DNA from: Lachnospiraceae bacterium
GTDB lineage: Bacteria > Bacillota > Clostridia > Lachnospirales > Lachnospiraceae
DNA: 32,196 bases
Reading direction: 5' to 3'
NCBI GenBank assembly: GCA_017461045.1
Contig: JAFTZJ010000002.1
Location: 1-32,196 of the forward strand
This document shows, piece by piece, positions 18,881-32,070 of the stretch (position 1 is its first letter; each line of letters begins with the position of its first letter). The notes beneath the pieces are model-generated. The model saw only the letters and a program-made list of their open reading frames with translations. It was not told where the DNA came from and made no database searches. The translations under genes were made by a program, and so were the position numbers.

Positions 18881-18909
18881 TTGACAAACAGATTGGGTTT
18901 TGCTATTAT
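18881..18909 (+). promoter_or_regulatory. Promoter of the aspS-gatC/gatA-like/gatB operon
   Basis: TTGACA (18881-18886), 17 nt, TATTAT (18904-18909) with an extended TGC. It sits just before the T-box leader and predicts a transcript start near 18916. Confidence 0.82.
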
Positions 18910-18915
18910 CGAAAT

Positions 18916-19130
18916 CGGAGACTCGGCTTTTTTGGAAAGTCTGACAGGGAGAATGCGTCATGGACTGAAAGCGCATTTCAGATGAGTAGTAAGCTTGGGA
19001 ACACTCTGGTTTGCAATAATTAAATAGGAAAGAGGATACTTTTCGTATCAATGCGGGTGGCACCGCGGGTTAATTTATGTTTACTCGTCCCGGGAATATA
19101 TTATATATTCTCGGGACTTATTATTTTTAT
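18916..19130 (+). promoter_or_regulatory. T-box riboswitch leader, probably reading tRNA-Asn
   Basis: The T-box core TGGCACCGCGG is at 19058-19068. A strong terminator follows (19087-19100 with 19104-19117, 14-bp stem with one G:U pair, then a T-rich tail to 19130). The UGGC of the T-box would pair with a tRNA ending GCCA, meaning a G73 discriminator as in tRNA-Asn and tRNA-Asp. The base of stem I can form between CAGGG (18945-18949) and CTCTG (19004-19008). That places AAC (19000-19002, followed by A) in the specifier position and suggests tRNA-Asn; GAC at 18963-18965 is in a distal loop and is less likely. Uncharged tRNA should promote readthrough into the operon. Confidence 0.92.
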
Positions 19131-19143
19131 AGGAGGTTTTATT

Positions 19144-21219
19144 ATGTATAGAACACTGTATTGTAACGACATACGTGATGAACATGTCGGTAATACGGTT
19201 GAGCTTGCCGGATGGGTGGATGTTGTGCGTGACCATGGTGGCGTAATCTTTATTGATTTGCGTGATTACACCGGTGTAACACAGGTGGTTGTCCACAATG
19301 AGGAGTTACTGAAGAATGTAAACCGTGAAACTGTTATTACGGTAAGCGGTATTGTAAATAAGCGTGATGAAGAAACGGTAAATGAGAAAATCGCAACCGG
19401 TTATGTGGAGCTGGTAGCAGACTCATTACAGGTATTAGGTAAGAGTAAGAATATGTTGCCGTTTGAAGTACGGAATTCTCATATGAGCAAGGATGATATC
19501 CGTCTCAAGTATCGTTATCTTGATTTGCGTAATCCGAAGAATCATGACAACATCGTTATGCGTTCTAAGATTATCCGTTATATGCGTAATAAAATGGAAG
19601 AGAAGAATTTCTTGGATATGCAGACACCGATTTTGACTGCATCTTCTCCGGAAGGTGCCCGCGACTTCCTGGTACCAAGCCGTAAGCATCCGGGTAAATT
19701 CTATGCGTTACCACAGGCACCACAGCAGTTCAAGCAGCTTCTTATGGTGTCCGGTTTTGACCGTTATTTCCAGATTGCACCTTGTTTCCGTGATGAGGAT
19801 GCCAGAGCAGACCGTTCACCGGGTGAGTTCTACCAGTTAGACTTTGAAATGGCATTTGCAACACAGGAAGAAGTTCTTGAGGTGTGTGAGGATGTAATCT
19901 ACGATACATTTAAGGAATTTACAGATAAGAAGGTAACCGAAAAGCCATTCCGTCGTATCACATATGCAGATGCAATGATGAAATACGGTTCCAATAAGCC
20001 GGATCTTCGAAATCCATTGATTATCTGTGACTTGACTGCGTTCTTTGCAGATGTAGAATTCCCTGCATTTAAGGGAAAACCGGTTCGCGGTATTGTAGCA
20101 AATTGTGCAGGCAAGTCCAAGAAGTTCTTCGAGGATTCCTTGAAGTTCGCAACCTCTGCTGAGGTTGGTCTTGGTGGCCTTGGTTATATTACCCTGAAGG
20201 AGGGCGTTTTTGCCGGTCCGATTGCCAAGTTCTTAAGTGATGAGAAGAAGGCAGAAATTATTCAGCTTACAGGTGTGAAGGAAGGAGAAACACTGTTCTT
20301 CATCTGTGATGATAAGAAGAGTGATACAGAAAAGAAGGCCGGTCATATCCGTTCATGGCTTGCAAGAAAAGAGCAACTTGACCTGATTCGGGATGATGCA
20401 TTTGAATTCTGCTTCATCGTAGATTTCCCAATGTATGAAATCGATGAAGAGACCGGAGATACCATTTTCACTCACAATCCATTCTCAATGCCACAGGGCG
20501 GTATGGATGCATTGATGGGCGAGGACCCAACAGAAATTCTGGCTTACCAGTACGACCTGGTTTGTAACGGTATCGAATTGGCTTCCGGTGCAGTTCGTAA
20601 CCATGATATTGATATTATGAAGAAGGCATTTGAAATCGCAGGTTATTCTGAGGATGAATTAAAGAGCCGTTTCAATGCACTTTATACAGCGTTCCAGTAT
20701 GGTGCACCACCACATGCCGGTATGGCTCCGGGTGTTGACCGTACGGTAATGCTTCTGACCGGTGAAGAGAAGATTATGGAAGTAATTGCATTCCCATTAA
20801 ACGGAAATGCCCAGGATCTGTTGCTTGGTGCACCGGGTGAGGTTACCAATCAGCAGTTAGAGGATGTACACCTTCTTGGCAGCGGAAGTGCTCTTGCAGC
20901 GCGTGGAGTGCCAAGCGGAAGTGGCAGAGCTCATAGTGAGAAACGTTCCACATTCTCGAATTCACAGCAGTTAAACCAGTTGTCCCTTTCCGAGCAGGAA
21001 GAAAGTGATATGCAGAACATTTTCACAATGATGAAGGCACATGAAGAGCAGTTGAAGAACATTGATACAGAAAATGTAGAAGAAATGGTGCATGTCATGC
21101 CGATGACCAACGTGTTGCGTGATGACGTAAGAGACCAGAAATTCTCAAGAGAGAGTTTGTTGGAAGGTGCTCCTGAACGTAGTGAAGATAGTTGGCAGGT
21201 GCCACGACTTGTAAAGTGA
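19144..21219 (+). CDS. aspS: Aspartyl-tRNA synthetase fused to GatC (predicted non-discriminating AspRS)
   Basis: 691 residues from the ATG at 19144 (AGGAGG 7 nt upstream). Residues 1-577 are a bacterial AspRS: anticodon-binding OB fold, class II core with motif 2 FRDEDARADRSPGEF, the inserted GAD domain, and motif 3 GMAPGVDRTVML. His31 in RDHGG matches the residue linked to relaxed tRNA choice in known non-discriminating AspRS. Normal AspRS ends near EVTNQQLEDVHL. Here a Gly/Ser-rich linker (about 578-605) leads into a GatC-like domain (about 606-691) with LSLSEQEES, the IDTENVEEM segment, NVLRDDV and a final APERSEDSWQVPRLV. The fusion would tether amidotransferase to synthetase. The core looks closer to alphaproteobacterial-type AspRS than to typical Firmicute AspRS (impression). 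Confidence 0.93.
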   Translation: MYRTLYCNDIRDEHVGNTVELAGWVDVVRDHGGVIFIDLRDYTGVTQVVVHNEELLKNVNRETVITVSGIVNKRDEETVNEKIATGYVELVADSLQVLGKSKNMLPFEVRNSHMSKDDIRLKYRYLDLRNPKNHDNIVMRSKIIRYMRNKMEEKNFLDMQTPILTASSPEGARDFLVPSRKHPGKFYALPQAPQQFKQLLMVSGFDRYFQIAPCFRDEDARADRSPGEFYQLDFEMAFATQEEVLEVCEDVIYDTFKEFTDKKVTEKPFRRITYADAMMKYGSNKPDLRNPLIICDLTAFFADVEFPAFKGKPVRGIVANCAGKSKKFFEDSLKFATSAEVGLGGLGYITLKEGVFAGPIAKFLSDEKKAEIIQLTGVKEGETLFFICDDKKSDTEKKAGHIRSWLARKEQLDLIRDDAFEFCFIVDFPMYEIDEETGDTIFTHNPFSMPQGGMDALMGEDPTEILAYQYDLVCNGIELASGAVRNHDIDIMKKAFEIAGYSEDELKSRFNALYTAFQYGAPPHAGMAPGVDRTVMLLTGEEKIMEVIAFPLNGNAQDLLLGAPGEVTNQQLEDVHLLGSGSALAARGVPSGSGRAHSEKRSTFSNSQQLNQLSLSEQEESDMQNIFTMMKAHEEQLKNIDTENVEEMVHVMPMTNVLRDDVRDQKFSRESLLEGAPERSEDSWQVPRLVK

Positions 21220-21229
21220 GGTGCGTAGG

Positions 21230-22414
21230 ATGAATAAGTATACAGTAACATTAGCAGATAATGGAAATATTGCAGTAGATGATACCATATTGGTAAAGGG
21301 AGCACAGGCAGCAGCCGGTTCCCGGATTCTGGAAGGCTTCCGACCACTTTTTAGTGCAGAAGCAGTTACCCGTCTGGAACAGGCGGGATACGTAATGGCA
21401 GGCAAAACTCATGTAGGTGAGTTTGGCTTGGATCTGGTAGGAGAATTCTCGTACTATGCAGAGCAAACAGAGGAATTAAAGGGTGCTGCAGCTGAAGCAG
21501 TTGCACAGAAAGAAGTAAAGGCAGCACTTGGTGTTGATATGAACGGAGCAACCCGTAGAGCCGCAGCTCTTTCCGGTGTTGACTTCTTGAAGCCTACCTA
21601 TGGTACCGTATCCCGTTACGGAATTATTTCCTGTGCAGCATCCGGCGAGCAGTTGGGTGTCTATGCTGCAGATGTAGAGGGCGTAAAGGAAATCATGGAG
21701 GTGATTGCCGGACATGATGAGAAGGACGGTACCTCGTTAAAAGAAAATTCGTATTCCTATGTAACCAACCAGGATGTAAAGGGAAAACGCGTATGCGTGA
21801 TTAAGGAACTGCTGGAAAAGGCAGATGCAGAAGTAGCAGCTAAGGTAAATGCTTATGCGGACCAGCTTCGCAAGCAGGGCGTAGTTGTAGAAGAGGTTTC
21901 CTGTGATATGTTCGATATTGCCAATACCACATGGCAAATACTGATGACAGCAGAAACCTGTAATAACGTATCCCGTTATGATGGTGTAAAGTACGGATAT
22001 CGGACAGAAACTTATAAGAATATTGATGAGTTATATGTGAATTCCAGAACAGAAGGATTTAATTTCTTAACAAAAGCAACCATTCTTTACGGTTCTGATG
22101 TATTGTCAAAGAATCGTTATGATGACTGCTACGGAAAATCACTTCGTGTGCGTCGTGTGGTTGCAGAGAAATTCGCAAAGCTGATGGAAGACTATGATGC
22201 AGTTCTTACTCCTGTATGTAGTAAGAGTGCATATACTGCATACGGTATGGATAAGGCATTCCAAACTGTATTTGAAGAGAGTGTATTTACTGCAGTTGCC
22301 AACCTGATTGGTGTGCCTGCACTGGTTAGCGGTGGTGTGCAGTTCATGGGCAAAGCATTTAACGAAAGTATGCTTCTTAGCCTGGCAGGATGTGTAGAAA
22401 GGGCAGGTGAGTAA
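21230..22414 (+). CDS. GatA-like subunit lacking the amidase active site (pseudo-amidase)
   Basis: 394 residues from the ATG at 21230 (AGGTG upstream); normal GatA is about 485. GatA homology is plain in GKTHVGEF, the LKPTYGTVSRYGI segment, SRYDGVKYGYRTE, SRTEGF and the C-terminal GGVQFMGKAFNE. The first 60-odd residues of GatA are missing. The catalytic Lys of the usual VKDN motif is Asp17 (VDDT), the PGGSSGG cis-Ser loop is replaced by an Ala/Glu-rich stretch (about 82-97), and the GSDTGGSIRQPA nucleophile loop reads GVDMNGATRRAA, with Ala107 at the nucleophile Ser position. Glutamine hydrolysis should be impossible. The open frame and its place between aspS-gatC and gatB argue for a retained structural or regulatory role. 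Confidence 0.87.
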   Translation: MNKYTVTLADNGNIAVDDTILVKGAQAAAGSRILEGFRPLFSAEAVTRLEQAGYVMAGKTHVGEFGLDLVGEFSYYAEQTEELKGAAAEAVAQKEVKAALGVDMNGATRRAAALSGVDFLKPTYGTVSRYGIISCAASGEQLGVYAADVEGVKEIMEVIAGHDEKDGTSLKENSYSYVTNQDVKGKRVCVIKELLEKADAEVAAKVNAYADQLRKQGVVVEEVSCDMFDIANTTWQILMTAETCNNVSRYDGVKYGYRTETYKNIDELYVNSRTEGFNFLTKATILYGSDVLSKNRYDDCYGKSLRVRRVVAEKFAKLMEDYDAVLTPVCSKSAYTAYGMDKAFQTVFEESVFTAVANLIGVPALVSGGVQFMGKAFNESMLLSLAGCVERAGE

Positions 22415-22416
22415 TT

Positions 22417-23841
22417 ATGAAATATGAAATCGTAATCGGACTTGAGACTCATGTGGAATTAAGTACAGAATCCAAAATCTTCTGTTCCTGTGGCGGACAT
22501 TCTGCAGCAAAGGAAGCAAATGATTGTGTGTGCCCTGCTTGTAGCGGTATGCCGGGTATGCTTCCGGTTATGAATAAACGTGTAGTAGAGCTTGCAGTAA
22601 CAGCAGGTCTTATGCTGAACTGTGAGATTAGCAGATATACAACATTTGATAAGAAGAACTATTATTACCCGGACCTTCCTTGTGCATATCAGATTACACA
22701 GTTGAATCATCCGATTTGTACCAATGGTCTGGTAACCCTGAAGACCTCAGAAGGAACAAGAGATATCCGTATTAAGCAGATTCACATGGAAGAGGATGCA
22801 GGTAAATTAGTACACGTAGGTAAGGCGTCCTTGGTGGACTTCAACCGTACCAGTGTACCATTGATTGAAATCGTTACCCAACCGGATTTCCGTAGTGCAG
22901 AAGAAGTTCTGGTATATTTGAATAAGTTAAAAACTATGTTCCGCTCCGGTGGTATTTCAGAGTGTGAAGAAGGCGCAATGCGTTGTGACGTAAATATTTC
23001 CGTACGTCCGGAAGGCAGTGAAGAGTTCGGTGTTCGTTCAGAGATTAAGAATATGGCTTCCTTTGAATCAATTGAACGTGCAATCCGTTACGAAGCACAG
23101 CGTCATATTGATGCCTTGGAATTCGAGACCGAGGAGCTGGTACAGGAAACCAGACGATTTGACGATGTAAGCGGTAAGACCTTCGCAATGCGTAACAAGG
23201 AAACCGAAGCAGATTATCGTTACTTCCCGGATGCCAACCTTATGCCGATTATTATTGATGACGAATGGTTGGGGCAGATTAAGGCTGCAAAACCGGTAGA
23301 AATTGATGAGAAGGCAGAGCAGTATCGGGATGCAGGTATTTCGGATAAGGAAATCGATATCTTGATTCATAACCATAACGTAAGCAAGCTCTTGGATGAT
23401 GTAGTGGCTAAGGGCTGTGACGCAAAGAATGCGGCTGGCTGGATTCTGACAGACTGTGCCGGTATTATGCGTAAGAACGGTAAGTTAATCAGTGATCTTG
23501 AGATTACACCGGAGGAGCTTACAACCATTATCAAGATGGTAGACAGCGGAGATGTAAACCGTATGAGCGGTCGTAAGATTCTGACTGCTGTTATCGAAGA
23601 AGGCGTTGATCCGGTTGCATATTGCAAGGAAAACGGCTTAGATAACAAGGTAGACGCATCTGTAATCGAAGGTGTTATGGATAAGGTATTCCAGGAAAAT
23701 GCACAGGCAATTACCGATTACAAGAATGGTAAGGTAAAGGCAAAGCAGGCGCTCTTCGGTGCTTGTATGCGTGAATTGAAGAATACAGCAGATACAGCAG
23801 TTATCAAAGAAATATTGGAAAAGAAGTTGGCGGATTTGTAA
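22417..23841 (+). CDS. gatB: Asp-tRNA(Asn)/Glu-tRNA(Gln) amidotransferase subunit B
   Basis: 474 residues, full length. GatB phosphorylates the carboxylate of mischarged Asp-tRNA(Asn) or Glu-tRNA(Gln) and amidates it. Cradle-domain motifs are GLETHVEL at the N-terminus, a Cys cluster for zinc (CSC ... CVCPAC), HMEEDAGK, QETRRFDD and DYRYFPDAN, followed by the helical and YqeY-like tail domains that hold the tRNA. Two deviations stand out: the usual DLPKGYQ reads DLPCAYQ, and the segment before EEGAMRCD is about two residues shorter than usual. It starts 2 nt after the GatA-like gene, so the operon is tightly coupled. Given the dead GatA partner, GatB might use free ammonia or another GatA. 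Confidence 0.95.
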   Translation: MKYEIVIGLETHVELSTESKIFCSCGGHSAAKEANDCVCPACSGMPGMLPVMNKRVVELAVTAGLMLNCEISRYTTFDKKNYYYPDLPCAYQITQLNHPICTNGLVTLKTSEGTRDIRIKQIHMEEDAGKLVHVGKASLVDFNRTSVPLIEIVTQPDFRSAEEVLVYLNKLKTMFRSGGISECEEGAMRCDVNISVRPEGSEEFGVRSEIKNMASFESIERAIRYEAQRHIDALEFETEELVQETRRFDDVSGKTFAMRNKETEADYRYFPDANLMPIIIDDEWLGQIKAAKPVEIDEKAEQYRDAGISDKEIDILIHNHNVSKLLDDVVAKGCDAKNAAGWILTDCAGIMRKNGKLISDLEITPEELTTIIKMVDSGDVNRMSGRKILTAVIEEGVDPVAYCKENGLDNKVDASVIEGVMDKVFQENAQAITDYKNGKVKAKQALFGACMRELKNTADTAVIKEILEKKLADL

Positions 23842-23868: not shown

Positions 23869-24189
23869 ATGTTCCCATTAATCAACAAACGAGAGACTGG
23901 TGTTAACTTACGCAGAATCATGGATATGCGTGGAATTACGCCCAAAGATGTGCAAGAATATCTTGGACTTGGTTGTGTGCAGAGTGTATATCGTTGGACG
24001 GATGGCACAAATATGCCAACTATAGACAATCTGTATGCACTGAGTGAATTGTTCCAAGTTCCCATTGATGAACTTGTGCGAGGAAACAGGGCGCCGATTA
24101 CACCGAGCATACAATTAGAGACGTTGGATGCACGAGAAAGAAGATTGTATGCATATTGTGAAAAATTAAATGAATTGAAAGCTGCTTAA
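23869..24189 (+). CDS. Small XRE-type helix-turn-helix regulator (copy A)
   Basis: 106 residues with an AGAGAGG ribosome site. An N-terminal HTH covers about residues 12-70: NLRRIMDMRG, then DVQEYLGLGCVQSVYRW as turn and recognition helix, then LYALSELFQVPIDELV. A short charged helical C-terminus follows. It closely resembles the protein at 31065-31400. It lies 27 nt after gatB with no terminator and could be co-transcribed, but its partner is more likely the downstream gene, from which it is separated by a hairpin that embeds that gene's ribosome site. Confidence 0.85.
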   Translation: MFPLINKRETGVNLRRIMDMRGITPKDVQEYLGLGCVQSVYRWTDGTNMPTIDNLYALSELFQVPIDELVRGNRAPITPSIQLETLDARERRLYAYCEKLNELKAA

Positions 24190-24221
24190 AATTGAATTAC
24201 AAGTTCAATGACAAACAGAAC

Positions 24222-24283
24222 AACCTCCCTTAGAATTGTTTTAGAGACAAAGATACAGAAACAGTTTTAAGGGAGGTTTTTTT
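24222..24283 (+). promoter_or_regulatory. Long hairpin containing the Shine-Dalgarno of the next gene, terminator-like
   Basis: A stem of about 21 bp (24222-24242 with 24258-24278, three G:U pairs) ends in a T7 run that touches the ATG at 24284. The 3' arm contains AAGGGAGG (24269-24276), the only ribosome site of the next gene, so the fold would both hide the ribosome site and look like an intrinsic terminator. A small inverted repeat (ATTGAA/TTCAAT, 24191-24209) just after the XRE gene could be an operator. Confidence 0.8.
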
Positions 24284-24946
24284 ATGAGCGAAAAAATGTT
24301 AGTAACACAGGCCTTGGATGAAAGAGACTTGTTAGTAAAGAAAATTACAGACAAAATCGGAAAAGCAAGCTTTGTAGACACCACGAAACCAAATGAAGAC
24401 AAGGTGTATGAAAAGCGAATCAGCAAAGAAGACTATGCGAAAGAAGCGGAATCTGCATATCAGCAGATTATGGATTTGATTGAACGATATCAGAAGATTG
24501 ATGCGGCCATAGTCGCTTCCAATGCACAGACGGAAATTACAACTTCATATGGCACATTTACTGTAGCCGGTGCCATTTCTCTCAGAAGCAGACTTCGTGG
24601 TGCCAGTGCTTATGAAGGTGACGCAGACTTCGAAGGCAGGCTTCAGAAAAAAATGGCAAATGAATACAGTGAGCGGGTACAGTTTTGCGAACGGAAGAAC
24701 AGCCAACTGCAGAATACCGCAGAAGAAATGCGTCTGAGCATTCTGGGAAAAGATAGCAAGACCAAGGACGAAAAACCGCTAAGCGTGGTAGATGCATATG
24801 TAAAAGAGAATACAACCGAATTGGTTGATCCTCTGGATGTTAAGAAGAAGGTAGAAGCCTTGGAAGAAAAGCGCAGCACCCTTCTGACGGAATTGGATAC
24901 ACAGATAAAGGTATCGAATGCAACGACCTTTATTGAAGTAGTCTAA
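24284..24946 (+). CDS. Helical cytoplasmic protein, tentatively DIP1984-family
   Basis: 220 residues, almost entirely charged helices, with no signal peptide or membrane segment. The opening QALDERDLLVKKITDKI and the closing heptad-like stretch up to LDTQIKVSNATTFIEV resemble proteins annotated as DIP1984 family, whose function is not known. A central part (about 75-110) contains a less helical TSYGTFTVAGAISLRSRL segment. Expression is probably controlled by the hairpin that contains its ribosome site and perhaps by the XRE regulator upstream. Confidence 0.65.
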   Translation: MSEKMLVTQALDERDLLVKKITDKIGKASFVDTTKPNEDKVYEKRISKEDYAKEAESAYQQIMDLIERYQKIDAAIVASNAQTEITTSYGTFTVAGAISLRSRLRGASAYEGDADFEGRLQKKMANEYSERVQFCERKNSQLQNTAEEMRLSILGKDSKTKDEKPLSVVDAYVKENTTELVDPLDVKKKVEALEEKRSTLLTELDTQIKVSNATTFIEVV

Positions 24947-25055
24947 ATTGAATATTGATTTCCTGCATTACGAAAACCTCGAATCCGGCTTCCCTGTAAC
25001 AGGGTTACGTTACAAGTACGGCTATTACCAATTCTGATTAAATTGGGTTGCTACT

Positions 25056-25126
25056 TAAAGAATGGCGTAATGGTAACGCTCATGATTAGTGATCATGCAT
25101 TGTAGGTTCGAATCCTACTTCTTGTA
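25056..25126 (+). pseudogene. tRNA-like element, anticodon position AGT, mismatched acceptor stem
   Basis: A 71-nt cloverleaf can be drawn: D arm GCGT/ACGC with loop AATGGTA (25065-25079), a perfect 5-bp anticodon stem CATGA/TCATG with loop TTAGTGA (25081-25097), variable CATT, and T arm GTAGG/CCTAC with loop TTCGAAT (25102-25118). The acceptor stem (25056-25062 with 25119-25125) pairs at only five of seven positions, failing at the end, and no CCA is encoded. The anticodon position AGT would read Thr ACU, but unmodified A34 is rare in bacteria. It is probably a decayed tRNA, a mobile-element tRNA or a tRNA mimic. An inverted repeat (CCAATT/AATTGG, 25028-25046) precedes it. Confidence 0.55.
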
Positions 25127-25370
25127 AAAGTGGTTTATTTTGATGAAAGCAAACATCTCCAATTTAACCGTTTTGTGTTTTGTTTGAACCGTCAAAGGTA
25201 AATGGTTAAGGATTTTTGTGTGTCAATGGTTTTGTATAACTGTAGAACTTTCGTGTAGACATAGAAATGTGTTGAAATCCACGAAGAAGGTTAATGCGTT
25301 AAGTCGGTTGGCTGGAGGAGATCCTCGTGGCTGTAATGTGGGCAGATAAAGTTAATATAGCAGATGGAAA
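25127..25370 (+). other. Gene-free stretch, possible non-coding transcript
   Basis: I see no convincing protein gene here. TTAACC (25164-25169) and GGTTAA (25204-25209) enclose a smaller hairpin (TTTGA/TCAAA) and are followed by TTTTT, so this may be a terminator for the tRNA-like element. A GC-richer block at about 25300-25350, with a GAGG/CCTC hairpin, leads to the strong terminator at 25371-25418. An RNA of under 200 nt ending there is possible. I could not match it to a known RNA family. Confidence 0.3.
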
Positions 25371-25418
25371 AACTCTCTTAAAATTGATGGGAAAGATCGA
25401 TTTCAAGAGAGTTTTTTT
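25371..25418 (+). terminator. Strong intrinsic terminator with no protein gene just upstream
   Basis: A stem of about 18 bp (25371-25388 with 25396-25413, two G:U or mismatched positions), 7-nt loop, then a T7 run. The nearest upstream protein gene ends 425 nt earlier, which suggests that something non-coding is transcribed into it. Confidence 0.8.
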
Positions 25419-25732
25419 GGTTATGAAAACGTGATATAAATATTGAAAAATAGTGCAAAAAGCGATGAAAATGACCAAATATGTGAAAAACAGGTCTAAT
25501 TATGCTGGTAAACGGGAAAATTCGATGTTTTGTGATATAATGTGTCAATTGCTAGTTTTGGTGCTAGGGGGAGGAGGAAATTTTAAAAGTGAAATGAGAA
25601 CGGTGGTAATGTTGGTGGGTTTGAGGTTGATGAAATGAATGTTTGGGCATGGCACGGCAAGAATGTGCTTTTTTAGAAAAATCCAGTAAATACGAGGGTT
25701 GTAGAGGAGAAAAAGTGGATTTTTAATACTGG

Positions 25733-25738
25733 TATAAT
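25733..25738 (+). promoter_or_regulatory. Extended -10 promoter element of a possible small RNA
   Basis: TGG followed by TATAAT (25733-25738), with no good -35 box. A second TATAAT lies at 25536-25541, also without a clear -35. A transcript from about 25745 would run about 115 nt to the terminator at 25817-25863. Confidence 0.4.
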
Positions 25739-25816
25739 ACATTTTTTTAGAGTTTGGGTTGTGACATGGCGAAAAATTAAAGTACAATTTAAAATGATAT
25801 AGAACATGACTTGATG

Positions 25817-25863
25817 GAATCTGGTCGGCTGAACTGAAAAGGGGAGCTTGACCAGATTTTATA
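25817..25863 (+). terminator. Terminator hairpin upstream of the STAND-like gene
   Basis: AATCTGGTC (25818-25826) pairs with GACCAGATT (25850-25858), extended by a G:U pair, and is followed by TTTATA. It lies directly before the promoter of the 1241-residue gene and could end a small RNA started near 25745. Confidence 0.65.
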
Positions 25864-25867
25864 ACAA

Positions 25868-25896
25868 TTGAGAGAATGCGTACATTTTGATATAAT
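25868..25896 (+). promoter_or_regulatory. Promoter of the STAND-like/kinase operon
   Basis: TTGAGA (25868-25873), 17 nt, TATAAT (25891-25896) with an extended TGA. It predicts a leader of about 58 nt, with GAGGAGA before the ATG at 25961. Confidence 0.82.
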
Positions 25897-25960
25897 TTGA
25901 ATGAAAATTAATTATGAATATGATTATGTACTGATAATAAATATATGAGGAGAGATTAGT

Positions 25961-28900
25961 ATGATTGAACAATTATTTACAGCTATTGTTTCTCTTGGAT
26001 CTTCTGGAGCACAGAATTTGTTGTTTTCAGTAGGAGAGAGTGTAGGAGCAAAATTTAAAGAATCATATGCGTGGAAAAAAATATTTGCTGATACAGGAGA
26101 ATTCTTTATTAAAAATGAGCAGGAAGAAAACTCGTTTTTTAATGATTTAGAACGTGTACTGTCAAAAGAGAATTTGTCAGAGATTGCAAAAGATTTAAAA
26201 ACAGAAGACGGGTACGTTTTGAAACAAAAATTGTATAAATCTCTTATGCAATTAATGAGAAGATATGAGATACCTTATGAAATTGCAGAAGATTATACAA
26301 TGAAGATTATTTATGTAGTTCTTGAACAATTAAAAACCATTGATCCTAAAAAGTATGAACATTATTTTTTGCAGGAATGGAGAGACGAACAGGAACATAG
26401 TTTTTTAGAACTTCAAAAAAGAATCGAAAAGATGTCAAAGGAGCTTGCGATTTACAACCGTGAAGAAGTGGCAATAGTGTCTTCAGGACAAATGGATATC
26501 GAACTTAGAAGAAGTACTCAGAGTCCATCCATTGGAATTGAATTTTTTATAGTTGATGATGAGAATTTTCAAGATGAATTCGAAGAACTGCGATATGAGG
26601 ATTTGGTTTACATTAGGGGGCGTAATAGGGAAGAGACTATTTATTGCATTTTAAATGAATTATGGAGATTAAATGATAAGCGTCCTATTTATGTTGTTAA
26701 GAGTTTGGAATCTTGGAATAAACTTCAGACAATGAAAAACGAGGGTAATATTTATATTCCATGGTTTTACGCTGATGAGATTATTGCAATCGAGAACAAC
26801 ACCAATATTTTTGTCCTAGACGAAAACACTCCTGTATTTAACAAGAGTGTTTTAGAACTGCGCCCTAGAACCTATGCTACATTATCAAGATGCTTAGAAG
26901 AAGCAGGGATGGAGTATGATAAAGCATATGCTCTTTTAGCAGATACGCATGGTTTATTTATACAAATCAAAAAAAAGCTGTTTAGAGGAGAGTATTTAAA
27001 ACAGCCTTCTTGGATTAGCGGTGTAAGCGAAAACGCAAAGAAAACTTGCTTGCTTATTGGAAGTTGGGAAGAAATAGAAGGTGACAAATTAATTATAGAA
27101 TCAGTGTATGGTGATTCATATGATAGATTTTTAGGGGAAGTTCTCCCATATACTAAAGGAGAAGATCCTCTATTATATATGACGAAGCGAAATGGAACTA
27201 TTTCCTATTATTTGGCAAGTGTAGAGAATGTATGGAGCTATCTAAATGTTTTGACTAATGAACATATTTGGGAAATATTTGTTGTTGCTGTACTGGAAGT
27301 AATTAACGAATCAGAAAATCTTTTTACTTATGATGGGCGAAAAAGACTGCTTGCACAGTTTAAAGGAGAAAGATTATTCTGGTCTGAAACAATACGCAAA
27401 GGTATGTTGAAGACATTATTAATTAAAGCGGCGTATCAAAAGGATCAGGAAACACAGATTGCATTAAATAGATTAGTAGAGAAAATTTTAGAGTGTGTGA
27501 AAACAGAAAAACAGTGGAACTATATAGCAAGGTTTTGGGGAGAACTATGCGAAATATCTCCTGTAGCGACACTAGAAAGACTTGAACAAGAGTTGGGTGA
27601 AGATACAGGGCTATTATCTCTCTTTAGAAATCAATCTAGTGATTTTATTTTTGGCAGGAATGCATATATTGATATTCTGTGGGGAATTGAACAATTTCTT
27701 GTGCAAAAAGTGTATTTTTGGCAAGCGTTTAAATGGCTTTTGAGATTGGATTCGTACCGTTTCGAATACAAATCGAATTCACCTAAAGATATTTTCACGA
27801 AGATTTTTTGTACTTGGGTAAATTTCTGTGCTATTGAGACAGCAGAGGAAAAACTAATTGCTGCTGAATTAGCTTTTGAAAACAATTATGATAATACATG
27901 GGAGTATTTGTATGAGGCAATTAATAATAAAGGGCGGAGTATATTTGGTGGAATATCATCGCCTAAATATAGGGAGTATGAAAAAACAAGATCTACTACG
28001 ATAGGAGAGATGCAAAAGGCTCATTTAGGTTATTTTAATCTTCTTATAAAACATATGGATTTCTCGGTTGAACATTGGGAAAAAATAGTGAATTTATCGG
28101 ACGATTTACCAGATGACTTAAGAAAAGAAGTGTTTGAGCAACTTTTATATGAAATTGGTCAGATGTCTGATGAAGAAGTAATGCAAATTAAAAATGAAGT
28201 TCGACATCTTATATATAGGCATAGATATTTTGCTTCTTCTGAGTGGGCTATGCCTGAGAAAAAACTCGCTGAATATGAAAATCTTCTAAACTGTATTAAC
28301 ATAAATACACCGGAATATGAATATGTCTATTTATTCAAAAATGGTTGGGAGCATCCACTTTTACATCCAGTTCCTCACGATGAGAAAGGACAAAGAGGCG
28401 ATAATGAAACTGCTACACATGCACTGATTCAAGAAAAGCTTATTGAGTTTCAAAAATGTGGTTATAGGCTAGCTGTATTGGCAAAGATTTGTGGACAAGA
28501 AACATATTCTACTTTGGGAAATTATCTTGCTAAGTATTGGAATGATGGGAAATGGGAGTTCGAAACGTTCAAAGAACTTATATCGGTTCAGGAATCAGGT
28601 GCGATTGCAATAGATTATTTAGGGAGTTTTGCAAGCAGTGAACATTTGCCATATAGTATGATTATTGAAGAATTATCAAAATCTGGTGTTTCAATTGATA
28701 TTTTGTCAAATACATATAGGATAGAAGCAGTCAGAACTCAAGATATTCCCCTTGTTACATACGCATCTGAACAGGTTAAAACAGCATTTTGGAGAAACAG
28801 TATTATTTGTGAGGAACAGAATATATCATGGGTCTTAATAGAATGTAAGAAATATGCGTCTCTTGATGTATATTTGGACCAGGTATATCGAATTCATTAT

Positions 28901-29686
28901 CGGAATCCTTTGCCAGCCGAACAGATATTATGCTGTTTTGATGAGATTGAAAGTATGCCACATTCAGACAGTAATCAAATGACAAAATATCATGTTGAGC
29001 AGCTTATGGAAGTAATTCAAGATGCATATGTGGGTGATGCAGTAAAAAGTGTCAGAATTGCACATCTAGAGATTCTCTTTATGAATTTGTTAGAGTGGGA
29101 AAATATGAGATGTTTTCATCGTATGATAAAACAGTCACCTGAATTATTTGCTCAGCTTGTTGCCTGTGTATTTAAAAAAGATCATGGTGGTAATGAAGGA
29201 ATATCTAAAAATCAAACATATTTTCATAATATGTATACGATTTATGATAAAGCACATTTTTGTCCTACGGAAAATAACGGAGAAGTTTTGGAAGAAGAGC
29301 TAGAAGAATGGCTAGAGAAATATCGCCAGTTGCTAATTGATAGTGATCAAGAGAGTTTGTTTACTGCTACACTAGGACGTTTATTTTCATTTTCTCCGAT
29401 AGGAGCCGATGGGCATGAACCATGCGAAGCGGTTCGTAAAGCGATTGAAAAATATGGCGATGATAAGATGATTAGTCGTTATCAGACTGCTGTATATAAT
29501 AGGCGAGGTGTGTTTAGTCCTTCTGCGGGAAAAGAAGAGCTGAGGATGGCGGAAGAATTTAAAACAAATGCGCAATATTTAGAACCTCGCTATCCAATGA
29601 CAGCAAAGATTTTCTATGGTTTGTATGAAACCTATAAGAGAGAATCAGATAGAGAAAGGATGGATGCTGAAAATGGCTGGTATTAG
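25961..29686 (+). CDS. Large STAND/Avs-like protein with degenerate nucleotide-binding motif
   Basis: 1241 residues, no signal peptide or membrane segments. Region 1 (1-140) is a helical N-terminal domain, followed by a predicted coiled coil (about 140-165). Region 2 (about 190-345) resembles a STAND-type ATPase module: the P-loop position reads VYIRGRNREET (216-226), with the usual GK replaced by EE, then RPIYVV, NIYIPWFYADEI and IFVLDENT, and an ELRPRT segment. A winged-helix-like part follows (about 348-440), and 450-1241 is a long helical solenoid rich in Trp, Tyr and Glu. The layout (N-terminal module, ATPase-like core, helical sensor) resembles antiviral STAND proteins such as Avs, but I cannot assign a named family. 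Codon usage is AT-richer, with many AGA and ATA codons. It overlaps the kinase gene. Confidence 0.7.
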   Translation: MIEQLFTAIVSLGSSGAQNLLFSVGESVGAKFKESYAWKKIFADTGEFFIKNEQEENSFFNDLERVLSKENLSEIAKDLKTEDGYVLKQKLYKSLMQLMRRYEIPYEIAEDYTMKIIYVVLEQLKTIDPKKYEHYFLQEWRDEQEHSFLELQKRIEKMSKELAIYNREEVAIVSSGQMDIELRRSTQSPSIGIEFFIVDDENFQDEFEELRYEDLVYIRGRNREETIYCILNELWRLNDKRPIYVVKSLESWNKLQTMKNEGNIYIPWFYADEIIAIENNTNIFVLDENTPVFNKSVLELRPRTYATLSRCLEEAGMEYDKAYALLADTHGLFIQIKKKLFRGEYLKQPSWISGVSENAKKTCLLIGSWEEIEGDKLIIESVYGDSYDRFLGEVLPYTKGEDPLLYMTKRNGTISYYLASVENVWSYLNVLTNEHIWEIFVVAVLEVINESENLFTYDGRKRLLAQFKGERLFWSETIRKGMLKTLLIKAAYQKDQETQIALNRLVEKILECVKTEKQWNYIARFWGELCEISPVATLERLEQELGEDTGLLSLFRNQSSDFIFGRNAYIDILWGIEQFLVQKVYFWQAFKWLLRLDSYRFEYKSNSPKDIFTKIFCTWVNFCAIETAEEKLIAAELAFENNYDNTWEYLYEAINNKGRSIFGGISSPKYREYEKTRSTTIGEMQKAHLGYFNLLIKHMDFSVEHWEKIVNLSDDLPDDLRKEVFEQLLYEIGQMSDEEVMQIKNEVRHLIYRHRYFASSEWAMPEKKLAEYENLLNCININTPEYEYVYLFKNGWEHPLLHPVPHDEKGQRGDNETATHALIQEKLIEFQKCGYRLAVLAKICGQETYSTLGNYLAKYWNDGKWEFETFKELISVQESGAIAIDYLGSFASSEHLPYSMIIEELSKSGVSIDILSNTYRIEAVRTQDIPLVTYASEQVKTAFWRNSIICEEQNISWVLIECKKYASLDVYLDQVYRIHYRNPLPAEQILCCFDEIESMPHSDSNQMTKYHVEQLMEVIQDAYVGDAVKSVRIAHLEILFMNLLEWENMRCFHRMIKQSPELFAQLVACVFKKDHGGNEGISKNQTYFHNMYTIYDKAHFCPTENNGEVLEEELEEWLEKYRQLLIDSDQESLFTATLGRLFSFSPIGADGHEPCEAVRKAIEKYGDDKMISRYQTAVYNRRGVFSPSAGKEELRMAEEFKTNAQYLEPRYPMTAKIFYGLYETYKRESDRERMDAENGWY

Positions 29687-31007
29687 TATCTGTCCCGAAG
29701 TAGGTTTGATAGTAGTAGGAAAATATGGACAGTACTTAGTGAAGAATCATATTGATGGTGGTGGAAACGGAGAAGTGTTTGAAGTTGATGTCATTAGTGG
29801 AGGTGAGTTGTTACCAAAAAAAGGTGGATATGTAATTAAATTCTTAGTAGTTAAAGCAAAGGACACCAATGAATCTGAAAAGAGAGTAGCTAGGTTTAAA
29901 AAGGAAATTCAGGAGGTTCTTTTGTTTCAAAACAAAGTAGATAAAATTATTCCTATATACGATACCTCTAGCTATTGTGAAGAGGAGCAGGAATTTTTGT
30001 GGTATTTAATGCCAAAAGCAGAAAAATATAATCCTAGAAGCTTTTCTGTTATGCAGAAACTGGAACATATGCTTTGTTTGGGGAATTGTGTAAAGCAATT
30101 GCATAAACTTGGTTATGCACACAGAGACATTAAGCCAAAGAATCTTCTTGTATTTGAAGGGGAAGTGTGTCTTGCAGATTTTGGATTGGTCTGGAATATT
30201 AATGATACAGGTGAACATATTACGGAGGTAAATGATCGTTTAGGTCCTCAGGCAATTCGTCCACCTGAACTTCAGCCAGTTGAAAAAATTGATGATATAG
30301 ATTATAGAAAATCAGATGTGTATCTATATGCTAAAACTGTTTGGATGGTATTACATTGTAATAACAGAGGGTTTTCTTTAGAATATTCTCGAATTGCTGA
30401 TGATATTTATATATCTAAAGAGAAATTTGGGTTTGAAACGGCAGAACCATTACATCGTCTCATGGAGGAAGCTACTAAGCACAAGTATTGGGAAAGAGCT
30501 GATATTGAAAATTGTATTAACTACATAGAAAACCAATTAAGGGTTATCAAGGGAGATATTAGTCAAGATGTGTTGCGAGAATTGAAATATTCAGAAGAAT
30601 CAAAAAGAATTGATGCAACAGTAACTTCTGATGAAAAAATATTTAGAGATTCAGCTGCTATTTTGAAAATATTGAATAACATGTCTGGGTTTGTTGAATT
30701 AGTATTTATGGAGACGGAAAAAGAATATTGTAGATGCCCGCTTAGGAAAGCAAGATATATCCAAGACAAGCTTTTTGAAATTGAAATTCAAAATCCATAC
30801 AATAGTGGAAAGAAAAAAATAATTTTACTGGCAATAGATAATATTTGCATGAAAAAGGATAAAGAGCTGATATATGAAATTCAGTTGACTTCATATTGCT
30901 TGGATGATAAATTAACACCAATATATACAAATATTACTAATGCTTTGGAAAACTTAAGTAAGAGAGTTTGCTTAAATGCAGGATATATAGTTAGAATGGT
31001 TCATTAA
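29673..31007 (+). CDS. Hanks-type serine/threonine protein kinase with extra C-terminal domain
   Basis: About 444 residues if started at the ATG at 29673; the ATG at 29664 is also possible, and both overlap the upstream gene by 14-23 nt. Kinase motifs are intact: glycine loop GGGNGEVF (29-36), catalytic Lys56 in VIKFL, a helix-C Glu near 78 or 81, HRDIKPKN (150-157) with the catalytic Asp152, and DFG (169-171). A PPE-type motif follows at 197-199, so it is probably active. No transmembrane or PASTA region is present, so it is cytosolic and unlike PrkC. Residues about 290-444 form an unrecognised alpha/beta domain. Overlap with the STAND-like gene implies coupled translation and a shared function. 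Confidence 0.9.
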   Translation: MAGISICPEVGLIVVGKYGQYLVKNHIDGGGNGEVFEVDVISGGELLPKKGGYVIKFLVVKAKDTNESEKRVARFKKEIQEVLLFQNKVDKIIPIYDTSSYCEEEQEFLWYLMPKAEKYNPRSFSVMQKLEHMLCLGNCVKQLHKLGYAHRDIKPKNLLVFEGEVCLADFGLVWNINDTGEHITEVNDRLGPQAIRPPELQPVEKIDDIDYRKSDVYLYAKTVWMVLHCNNRGFSLEYSRIADDIYISKEKFGFETAEPLHRLMEEATKHKYWERADIENCINYIENQLRVIKGDISQDVLRELKYSEESKRIDATVTSDEKIFRDSAAILKILNNMSGFVELVFMETEKEYCRCPLRKARYIQDKLFEIEIQNPYNSGKKKIILLAIDNICMKKDKELIYEIQLTSYCLDDKLTPIYTNITNALENLSKRVCLNAGYIVRMVH

Positions 31008-31064
31008 CTGTTTGAGACGGTTTGCATTAAAGTACCGAGTGGAAGAAGATTAGGAGGAGACAGG

Positions 31065-31400
31065 ATGTCAAAAAGAATTACATACCCAAACATAGACATG
31101 CAACGAACCGGAAGAAAATTAAAACACATGCTCGAATCTGCAGGTTATACACCTCGTATAATCCAAGACTATTTGCATTTATCATGTGTACAGCCTATTT
31201 ATCGTTGGTATATGGGTAAGATATTACCATCGGTGGACCATCTGTTTATGCTCAGTGAATTGCTGAATGTACATATGGAAGACCTCTTGGTAAAGAAGAA
31301 TGTAGTACCGATAATATATGATATAGAGCAGCGTAACGCTCAGGCTGCGCAGAAACGATTTATAGCATATTACAAGAAAATATATCAGTCAGTGGCATAG
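31065..31400 (+). CDS. Small XRE-type helix-turn-helix regulator (copy B)
   Basis: 111 residues with an AGGAGGAGA ribosome site. It is clearly related to the protein at 23869-24189: the shared frame includes QDYLHLSCVQPIYRW (copy A: QEYLGLGCVQSVYRW), LPSVDHLFMLSELL (copy A: MPTIDNLYALSELF) and a similar charged C-terminus. The HTH spans about residues 18-80. It starts 57 nt after the kinase. As in copy A, a short inverted repeat (TTGGAC/GTCCAA, 31407-31423) and a hairpin containing a ribosome site follow. Confidence 0.85.
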   Translation: MSKRITYPNIDMQRTGRKLKHMLESAGYTPRIIQDYLHLSCVQPIYRWYMGKILPSVDHLFMLSELLNVHMEDLLVKKNVVPIIYDIEQRNAQAAQKRFIAYYKKIYQSVA

Positions 31401-31444
31401 ATGGCTTTGGACTAACCGTCCAATGAAAATACTATTGACAAATG

Positions 31445-31494
31445 ATATCCTCTTATCAAAGCCCGCAAAGGGACTATGATAGGAGGATATTTTT
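31445..31494 (+). promoter_or_regulatory. Hairpin containing the Shine-Dalgarno of the RhuM-like gene, terminator-like
   Basis: A 14-bp stem (31445-31458 with 31477-31490, one G:U pair) closes on a loop with CCC and GGG that can pair further. The 3' arm holds AGGAGG (31481-31486), and a T-run (31490-31494) leads directly into the ATG at 31495. It has the same design as 24222-24283. Confidence 0.8.
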
Positions 31495-32070
31495 ATGACT
31501 AAAGAAAATGAAATTGTATTATTTGAAACTGATGACAAAAAAATCTCATTAAATGTGTCGGTAGAGGATGAGACGGTATGGCTAACACAGTCACAAATGG
31601 TGGAGTTGTTTCAAAGAGATGTGTCTGTTATTTCTAGGCACATAAGAAATGTTTTTAAAGAAGGGGAGTTAGAAGAGAAAAGCAATTTGCATTTTTTGCA
31701 AATTGCAAATTCGGATAAACCAGTAGCATTCTATAGCTTGGATGTCATCATCTCCGTCGGCTATCGTGTGAAATCCAATCGTGGCGTAGAATTTCGTCGA
31801 TGGGCCAATTCTGTATTAAAACAATATATATTACAAGGCTACGCAGTTAATCAAAAACGTATTCAACAATTGAGTGAAGTAATACGTATCATGAAACGCA
31901 CAGAGAATGAATTGGATAGCAAGCAGATTTTGTCTGTTATTGAGAGATACAATAATGCATTAGACTTATTGGATGCATATGATCACCAGACGATGAAGCG
32001 TCCAAAAGGAAATGAAGCAATGTATGTGCTGGCATATGAGGAGTGTGTCGAAGTATGTAAATACCGATAA
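31495..32070 (+). pseudogene. RhuM-like protein truncated by an insertion sequence
   Basis: 191 residues are readable. The N-terminal RhuM/KilA-like DNA-binding segment is intact (VWLTQSQMVELFQRDVSVIS, then ISVGYRVKSNRGVEFRRWA), followed by a helical region ending in LLDAYDHQTMKRPKG and AYEECVEV. In relatives the protein continues after this point, often into a Fic/DOC domain. Here the family sequence stops near 32055, and the last four codons (C-K-Y-R) come from a different sequence that looks like the end of a mobile element. A RhuM-Fic protein of the mobile-element or toxin type is the best guess for the intact gene. Its ribosome site lies in the upstream hairpin. Confidence 0.75.

Follow-up and report, generated by a model that had tools for sequence, protein, structure and literature searches.

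A T-box operon of Clostridia with an AspRS-GatC fusion and an amidase-dead GatA homologue: a likely Asp-tRNA(Asn) amidotransferase fed by outside ammonia

The window, that is the whole stretch of 32,196 nucleotides analysed here (contig JAFTZJ010000002.1, 1-32,196), contains an operon in which a GatA homologue without amidase active site is encoded between an AspRS-GatC fusion and an intact GatB, downstream of an Asn-type T-box leader. Judging from sequence, this operon is likely to encode an Asp-tRNA(Asn) amidotransferase whose ammonia does not come from its own GatA.

Results

Organization of the operon

All elements lie on the + strand, tightly packed in the order leader, AspRS-GatC fusion, GatA homologue and gatB:

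18895..19129, + strand: T-box leader with Stem I, specifier AAC (19000-19002) and core GGGTGGCACCGCGGG (19055-19069)
about 19087-19117, + strand: terminator hairpin of the leader, with a T-rich run after it (from sequence and fold)
19144..20874, + strand: AspRS part of the AspRS-GatC fusion, above the cut-off of aspartate--tRNA ligase models
20986..21219, + strand: GatC domain at the C terminus of AspRS, up to the stop codon (PF02686, TIGR00135)
21230..22414, + strand: amidase-dead GatA homologue of 394 aa (Asp17 codon 21278-21280, Ala107 codon 21548-21550)
22417..23841, + strand: GatB, above the cut-off of GatB models, with active-site residues kept and a four-Cys site

The whole fusion gene runs from ATG 19144, which has AGGAGG ahead of it, to 21219; the start chosen by the ORF caller (19051) falls within the leader and ATG 19144 was preferred. 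The frame of the GatA homologue is open from 21221 to 22414 and its likely start is ATG 21230, in agreement with the preliminary description, where an intact frame from this position had been claimed. Pfam recognizes the tRNA-synt_2, OB fold, GAD and GatC domains in the fusion protein, Amidase in the GatA homologue and both GatB domains in the gatB product. The AspRS, GatC and GatB of the operon all pass their NCBIfam models, whereas the GatA homologue does not. The fusion of GatC to AspRS, previously proposed by eye, was borne out by the PF02686 match (E 1.5e-11) and by a TIGR00135 score of 55.3 bits against a cut-off of 47.1.

Downstream of the operon, two short proteins that look alike by eye, an HTH protein (23869-24189) and one with no Pfam match (31065-31400), flank a tRNA-Thr, a protein of 1241 aa that matched nothing in Pfam or PADLOC, and a protein kinase similar to the PD-T4-6 defence kinases. 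Further on, at 31495, a RhuM-like protein is encoded. The region 23869-32070 next to the operon may be a mobile or defence island. In 19 of the 83 sources described below, an AlaX-like alanyl-tRNA editing gene comes after the operon (for example L163, 11657-12823); DHHA1 and tRNA_SAD were found in the one tested.

Loss of the GatA active site

In the alignment of the window protein to solved GatA chains, IAVDD lies under IAVKD and MNGA under TGGS, so that the catalytic Lys is replaced by Asp17 and the nucleophile Ser by Ala107, and a gap falls at PGGSSGG, the cis-Ser loop. These are the three losses that had been proposed from the sequence, and the alignments made showed no alternative Ser-cisSer-Lys triad elsewhere in the protein. 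Both glutamine-binding residues, Arg 358 and Asp 425 in S. aureus numbering, which presumably correspond to R334 and D418 of the yeast protein, are also missing. The protein is still a clear member of the Amidase family (PF01425, 207.2 bits against a gathering score of 27, E 6.5e-61). The match spans only profile positions 52-445, which means that about 50-60 N-terminal residues are absent, close to the 60 first estimated. The NCBIfam equivalog model for GatA, TIGR00132, was not reached (281.1 bits, cut-off 481.1). In the available text of a study on yeast GatFAB, R334 and D418 are the residues that bind glutamine (PMC4027206).

The comparison was then extended to 83 sources, namely the window, 80 loci from a genome scan (see below) and the genomes G353 and G267, from which 79 dead GatAs were compared; one protein truncated at a contig end (L088) was omitted, together with three for which the ORF picker took another frame, direct translation giving an open frame (L148, L161 and L165). 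The catalytic Lys column holds Asp in 79/79 dead GatAs, as opposed to Lys in 53/53 canonical ones, a contrast that chance does not explain; none of the 79 has the cis-Ser loop, while triad and loop are present in all 53 (canonical ORFs were chosen by GGSSGG, and 0 of 53 loci were lost through that choice). The column of the glutamine-binding Arg contains Val (75) or Thr (4), and that of the substrate-binding Asp contains Ser (67), Gly (11) or Asn (1). Thus both features that define GatA, the Ser-cisSer-Lys triad with PGGSSGG and the glutamine-binding Arg and Asp, are lacking throughout the family. The nucleophile column is less uniform, with Ala in 49, Ser in 26 and Thr in 4 proteins; the earlier reading of Ala107 is therefore correct for the window but does not hold as a family trait. 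Annotation as GatA does not guarantee a glutaminase.

A rebuilt active site that still frees ammonia from glutamine or another amide might be suggested by the Ser or Thr found at the nucleophile position in 30/79 proteins, and by D20, D21, N108 and C247 (397-aa numbering), which do not vary among the 36 dead GatAs aligned. We regard such a site as quite unlikely, given that none of the 79 has the Lys, the cis-Ser loop or either glutamine-binding residue and that most carry Ala at the nucleophile position.

Distribution, conservation and selection

A scan of a species-genome collection returned 190 stretches encoding relatives of the dead GatA, and the best 80 of these were taken as the analysed loci. 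Their record titles name Clostridia lineages or simply Bacillota, and 51/80 name ruminant caecum, colon or rectum, which sampling may explain; gut contents are rich in ammonia. In the family to which the window belongs, the dead GatA was found in 6/397 genomes (E 1e-76), spread over six genera, and in 7 other genomes of the same genus only ordinary GatA was found. Plasmid records gave 320 matches, none of which reached 60% identity; the five best, at 34-35%, are at the level of ordinary GatA.

The arrangement of the operon is conserved. Of the 80 sources in which the ORF picker located the dead GatA, 77 have GatB directly after it and 71 have the AspRS-GatC fusion directly before it, with shorter pieces in 7 more. 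Among near-complete genes, G267 left aside, the fusion is 78-93% identical to that of the window, the dead GatA 65-83% and GatB 72-92%. All 79 dead GatAs form one clade (support 0.975). For pairs with dS between 0.3 and 1.0, the median dN/dS of the dead GatA was 0.114 (range 0.07-0.24, 53 pairs), as compared to 0.054 for GatB (35 pairs) and 0.070 for the fusion (62 pairs). The dN/dS check advised in the preliminary description thus points to purifying selection.

These data also decide on the view that the operon is a duplicate in decay or an artefact of the assembly. A normal GatCAB does occur in the window's genome, the dead GatA is rare in its family and absent from the other genomes searched in its genus, and the frame of the fusion is split in 2 of 83 sources (L107 and L164). 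However, an open frame with common losses across 79 sequences of a single clade, the dN/dS values and the presence of the gene in a single-contig genome (G353) refute this view; the decaying pseudogene named at the outset as a possible refutation of the proposal did not materialize.

A distant source, G267 (L050), encodes a separate GatC, a dead GatA of 411 aa and GatB, with neither fusion nor T-box core, and carries an unlinked AspRS. Its GatA already lacks Lys, loop and nucleophile. Since the residues are lost where GatC and AspRS are still unfused, the loss of the active site probably predates the fusion, and the G267 arrangement likely represents an earlier stage.

The AspRS-GatC fusion and GatB

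The AspRS part of the fusion is 59% identical to the unfused AspRS of G267 and 41% identical to the other AspRS of its own genome. Motif 2 is kept in 72/72 fusions longer than 600 aa. The same 72 and two unfused sisters have RDHGG, where the other AspRS of the window's genome has RNTGG; we take the His of RDHGG to be linked to tRNA(Asn) charging.

GatB had been described as largely intact, and this holds well beyond the window. Residues 1-471 of the window protein align with the solved GatB 2df4_B, and the active-site residues Glu10, His12, Glu125, Glu126, Glu151, Asn193 and Ser195 are kept; GLExH, HxEED, IEIVT and NIS, the motifs tested for GatB membership, were all found. Among operon GatBs longer than 440 aa, seven of the eight active-site positions are invariant in 77/77 proteins, and the eighth is Thr in 74 and Ser in 3.

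An Asn-type T-box leader

At Rfam gathering scores no T-box was detected at the operon, and the leader surfaced only when an E-value threshold was applied (RF00230 at 18909-19095, 39.3 bits, E 1.6e-7, gathering score 93). The same family matched 4/4 relatives searched, with 41.9-49.1 bits. The structural hallmarks are in place, namely the core, Stem I with an unpaired specifier and a terminator hairpin, which overlaps the 3' partner strand of the core. Of the 72 loci having enough sequence, 67 carry a T-box core ahead of the operon; it was not found in the remaining five (L095, L096, L102, L107 and L050). The specifier is AAC, an Asn codon, in 65 of the 67 core-bearing leaders (64 by Stem I pattern and L140 by eye); L100 and L118 have the core but no AAC Stem I. 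In the consensus fold of 22 leaders, AAC and the following purine are unpaired on the 3' side of the specifier loop, and 17/42 pairs show changes on both sides. The base that follows GGGTGG is C in 66/67 leaders, the complement of a discriminator G such as the G73 of tRNA(Asn) and tRNA(Asp). A tRNA(Asn) was sought for its discriminator base in 60 loci and none was found. On these features, the leader is an Asn-type T-box.

In two genomes (G353 and G020, loci L066 and L067) the canonical gatCAB is itself preceded by a synthetase of about 450 aa and a T-box core in which T occupies the position that pairs with the discriminator; these genomes may have two differently tuned T-box amidotransferase operons each. 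The L066 synthetase, the only one of the two that was classified, is an archaeal-type AspRS. Synthetases of this size near some operons or normal gatCABs had been considered as candidate AsnRSs, and those of L203, L204, L205 and L066 were all assigned by model to archaeal-type AspRS. In two related genomes such a gene lies just upstream of the T-box operon (L114 4254-5603 and L117 4255-5589), and that of L114/L205 being an archaeal-type AspRS, two unlike AspRS genes stand side by side.

Other routes to Asn-tRNA(Asn)

PF01425 proteins and AsnRS were searched in 50 of the 80 genomes, most of them metagenome-assembled and without completeness values, so that absences are uncertain. Half of them (25) also have a canonical GatA and 25 show the dead GatA only. 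AsnRS was above the cut-off in 7/50 genomes, 5 of which belong to the dead-GatA-only group (one AsnRS gene, in G438, has an internal TGA). Consequently, in 20/50 genomes neither canonical GatA nor AsnRS was found, and there, within the limits of such assemblies, no way to Asn-tRNA(Asn) other than the operon is visible. As a control of assembly completeness, matches of LysRS span, which were not classified further, occurred in at least 18 of these 20. The dead-GatA-only state is scattered over a tree of 70 operons and does not form a single clade.

The window's genome (67.5% complete) has a canonical GatCAB with intact triad, the second gatCAB that it had been suggested to look for, and a second AspRS. 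No AsnRS was seen among its PF00152 matches; LysRS is missing too, hence this absence is uninformative. A contig-edge fragment in the same genome is GlnRS, so GatCAB is probably not needed for Gln in that organism.

These counts bear on two other explanations. The operon might use the GatA of the normal GatCAB, or GatCAB might amidate while the operon only adds Asp-tRNA(Asn). This could apply to the window's genome and to the 25/50 genomes with normal GatA; borrowing a second GatA was indeed one of the uses first proposed. It cannot be a general answer, because searches of the other 25/50 turned up no further amidase-family protein, and the operon GatB keeps its tested catalytic residues, so that we judge this explanation unlikely. 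The second explanation is a regulatory or holding complex, binding Asp-tRNA(Asn) or sensing charging without amidation. The five dead-GatA-only genomes with AsnRS, in which the operon is unneeded for charging and yet retained, speak for it, and inactive-enzyme homologues often turn into regulators. Holding as the sole role fits badly with the 20/50 genomes that show no other Asn route, with the intact GatB residues and with a T-box control resembling that of a supply gene, and we consider it very unlikely.

An asparaginase-like neighbour

The commonest neighbour of the operon is a GatD/asparaginase-like gene, present beside it in at least 23/83 loci (21/83 by clustering, plus L161/G473 and L105) and directly after gatB in 15/20 sources with countable position. 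In L105 an apparent GatB-asparaginase fusion was rejected, as the 834-codon frame crosses an N stretch between the genes and shows adjacency only. The best match of the one neighbour tested against solved structures was archaeal GatD 2d6f (E 2e-12), with which it shares LSENM; the corresponding motif of ordinary AnsA is LDSSN or LDSTN. Seven neighbours scored 69-104 bits against NCBIfam GatD models with cut-offs of 310/324, and are thus outside GatD proper; their match begins at profile position 56 or later, the N-terminal domain being absent. With respect to type I asparaginase, the GGTI Thr and the HGTD Thr-Asp are kept, the score is below the TIGR00519 cut-off, and the position of the catalytic Lys is not Lys (Gln or variable by alignment). 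G448 (contigs C15 and C44) has a full asparaginase-like gene away from the operon and a remnant of such a gene next to it, as if the gene had been moved or replaced.

A profile search of the 50 genomes separated a close group (at least 300 bits, 14 genomes) from a distant one (117-235 bits, 22 genomes), the 117-bit limit being fixed after the scores were known (gap from 95 to 117). The adjacent gene occurs in 11 of the 20 genomes lacking both AsnRS and canonical GatA, as compared to 1/30 of the others (p 4e-5, relatedness ignored), and a close-group gene anywhere in 12/20 vs. 2/30 (p 6e-5, relatedness ignored). Either group is present in 36/43 genomes without AsnRS and in 0/7 with it (p 3e-5, relatedness ignored, post hoc limit); counting every match at E 1e-5, the figures are 41/43 and 1/7. 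The AsnRS genomes sit at about six places in the tree, each without the asparaginase-like gene. One copy, in G455, has an in-frame TAA inside the matched stretch.

It is conceivable, though we find it doubtful, that the operon forms a hybrid amidotransferase in which AspRS-GatC, dead GatA and GatB work with this GatD-like asparaginase partner, free asparagine or another amide being the ammonia source. The association with dependent genomes is in its favour. On the other side, the catalytic Lys position of the neighbour is Gln or variable, the G455 copy carries a stop codon, neither group was detected in the dependent genome G444, and seven further dependent genomes have the distant group only. 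Beyond the 50 genomes, the adjacent gene coexists with canonical GatA in G020 and G353, and the only asparaginases of G422 and G267 are AnsA-like. Moreover, asparaginase destroys the substrate of AsnRS, which is a simpler reason for the AsnRS contrast. For these reasons free ammonia is the plainer source.

Discussion

An intact GatB, an Asn-type T-box and the position of the operon as sole visible route in 20/50 genomes make an amidotransferase working on outside ammonia the best supported of the three uses first proposed, whereas borrowing a second GatA fails as a general answer and holding Asp-tRNA fits poorly as a sole role. In the scheme that we infer for subunit assembly, ammonia entry and Asn-tRNA formation, the AspRS part would charge tRNA(Asn) with Asp; GatB, tethered to AspRS via the fused GatC, would phosphorylate the Asp side chain, as its intact residues suggest; and outside ammonia would be taken in to give Asn-tRNA(Asn). 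The free pool may supply the ammonia, or a partner may do so, for instance the asparaginase-like protein encoded next to the operon. The dead GatA may be retained as a scaffold and perhaps also as an ammonia entry port. Use of ammonia has a precedent: in the available text of the yeast study, GatFAB amidates with NH4Cl, and truncation of the GatF N-terminal domain raises the use of NH4Cl and lowers that of Gln (PMC4027206).

If this proposal is true, the channelling of glutamine-derived ammonia is dispensable for coded asparagine, translation is tied directly to cellular ammonia or asparagine, and the operon provides natural parts for probing how GatB accepts ammonia. If the hybrid with the asparaginase-like partner were true, bacteria would have reinvented the archaeal GatD/GatE arrangement atop a retired GatA.

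Comparison with known systems

AspRS-GatC fusion annotation (PRK12820), GatCAB, GatDE and transamidosomes are already known. A literature search, mostly at the depth of titles and abstract openings, returned no description of this operon or of an amidase-dead GatA family, and to our knowledge all known GatCABs carry their own glutaminase. Like the GatCABs of S. aureus, A. aeolicus and T. thermophilus, the operon has three subunits, with an intact GatB, a GatC and a GatA clearly homologous to solved GatA (best E 1.1e-60); unlike them, its GatA has no triad, cis-Ser loop or glutamine-binding Arg and Asp and is short by 50-60 N-terminal residues, and its GatC is fused to AspRS.

The control of the operon recalls Firmicutes T-box synthetase operons, which share Stem I, specifier loop, T-box core and terminator; here an amidotransferase is controlled, with specifier AAC. 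A T-box with an amidotransferase has reportedly been found in C. acetobutylicum, after a 2008 survey. With respect to PRK12820 bifunctional AspRS/GatC (NCBIfam NF009460), the domain order, AspRS then GatC, is the same, but the window fusion scores 453 bits against a cut-off of 1379 and is not that equivalog. In the available text of the 2008 survey, no T-box is identified upstream of amidotransferase genes (PMC2494555).

Archaeal GatDE likewise pairs a GatB relative with an asparaginase-type ammonia donor, and the neighbour shares LSENM with its GatD; in contrast, the operon is bacterial and retains a dead GatA and GatC, and the neighbour, not seen beside most operons, has no conserved Lys at the catalytic position and is without the N-terminal region of GatD. 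Finally, the T. thermophilus Asn transamidosome (AspRS, GatCAB and tRNA-Asn; PDB 3kfu), which serves Asn-tRNA formation, also unites AspRS with the amidotransferase, whereas in the operon described here the link is covalent and there is no working glutaminase.
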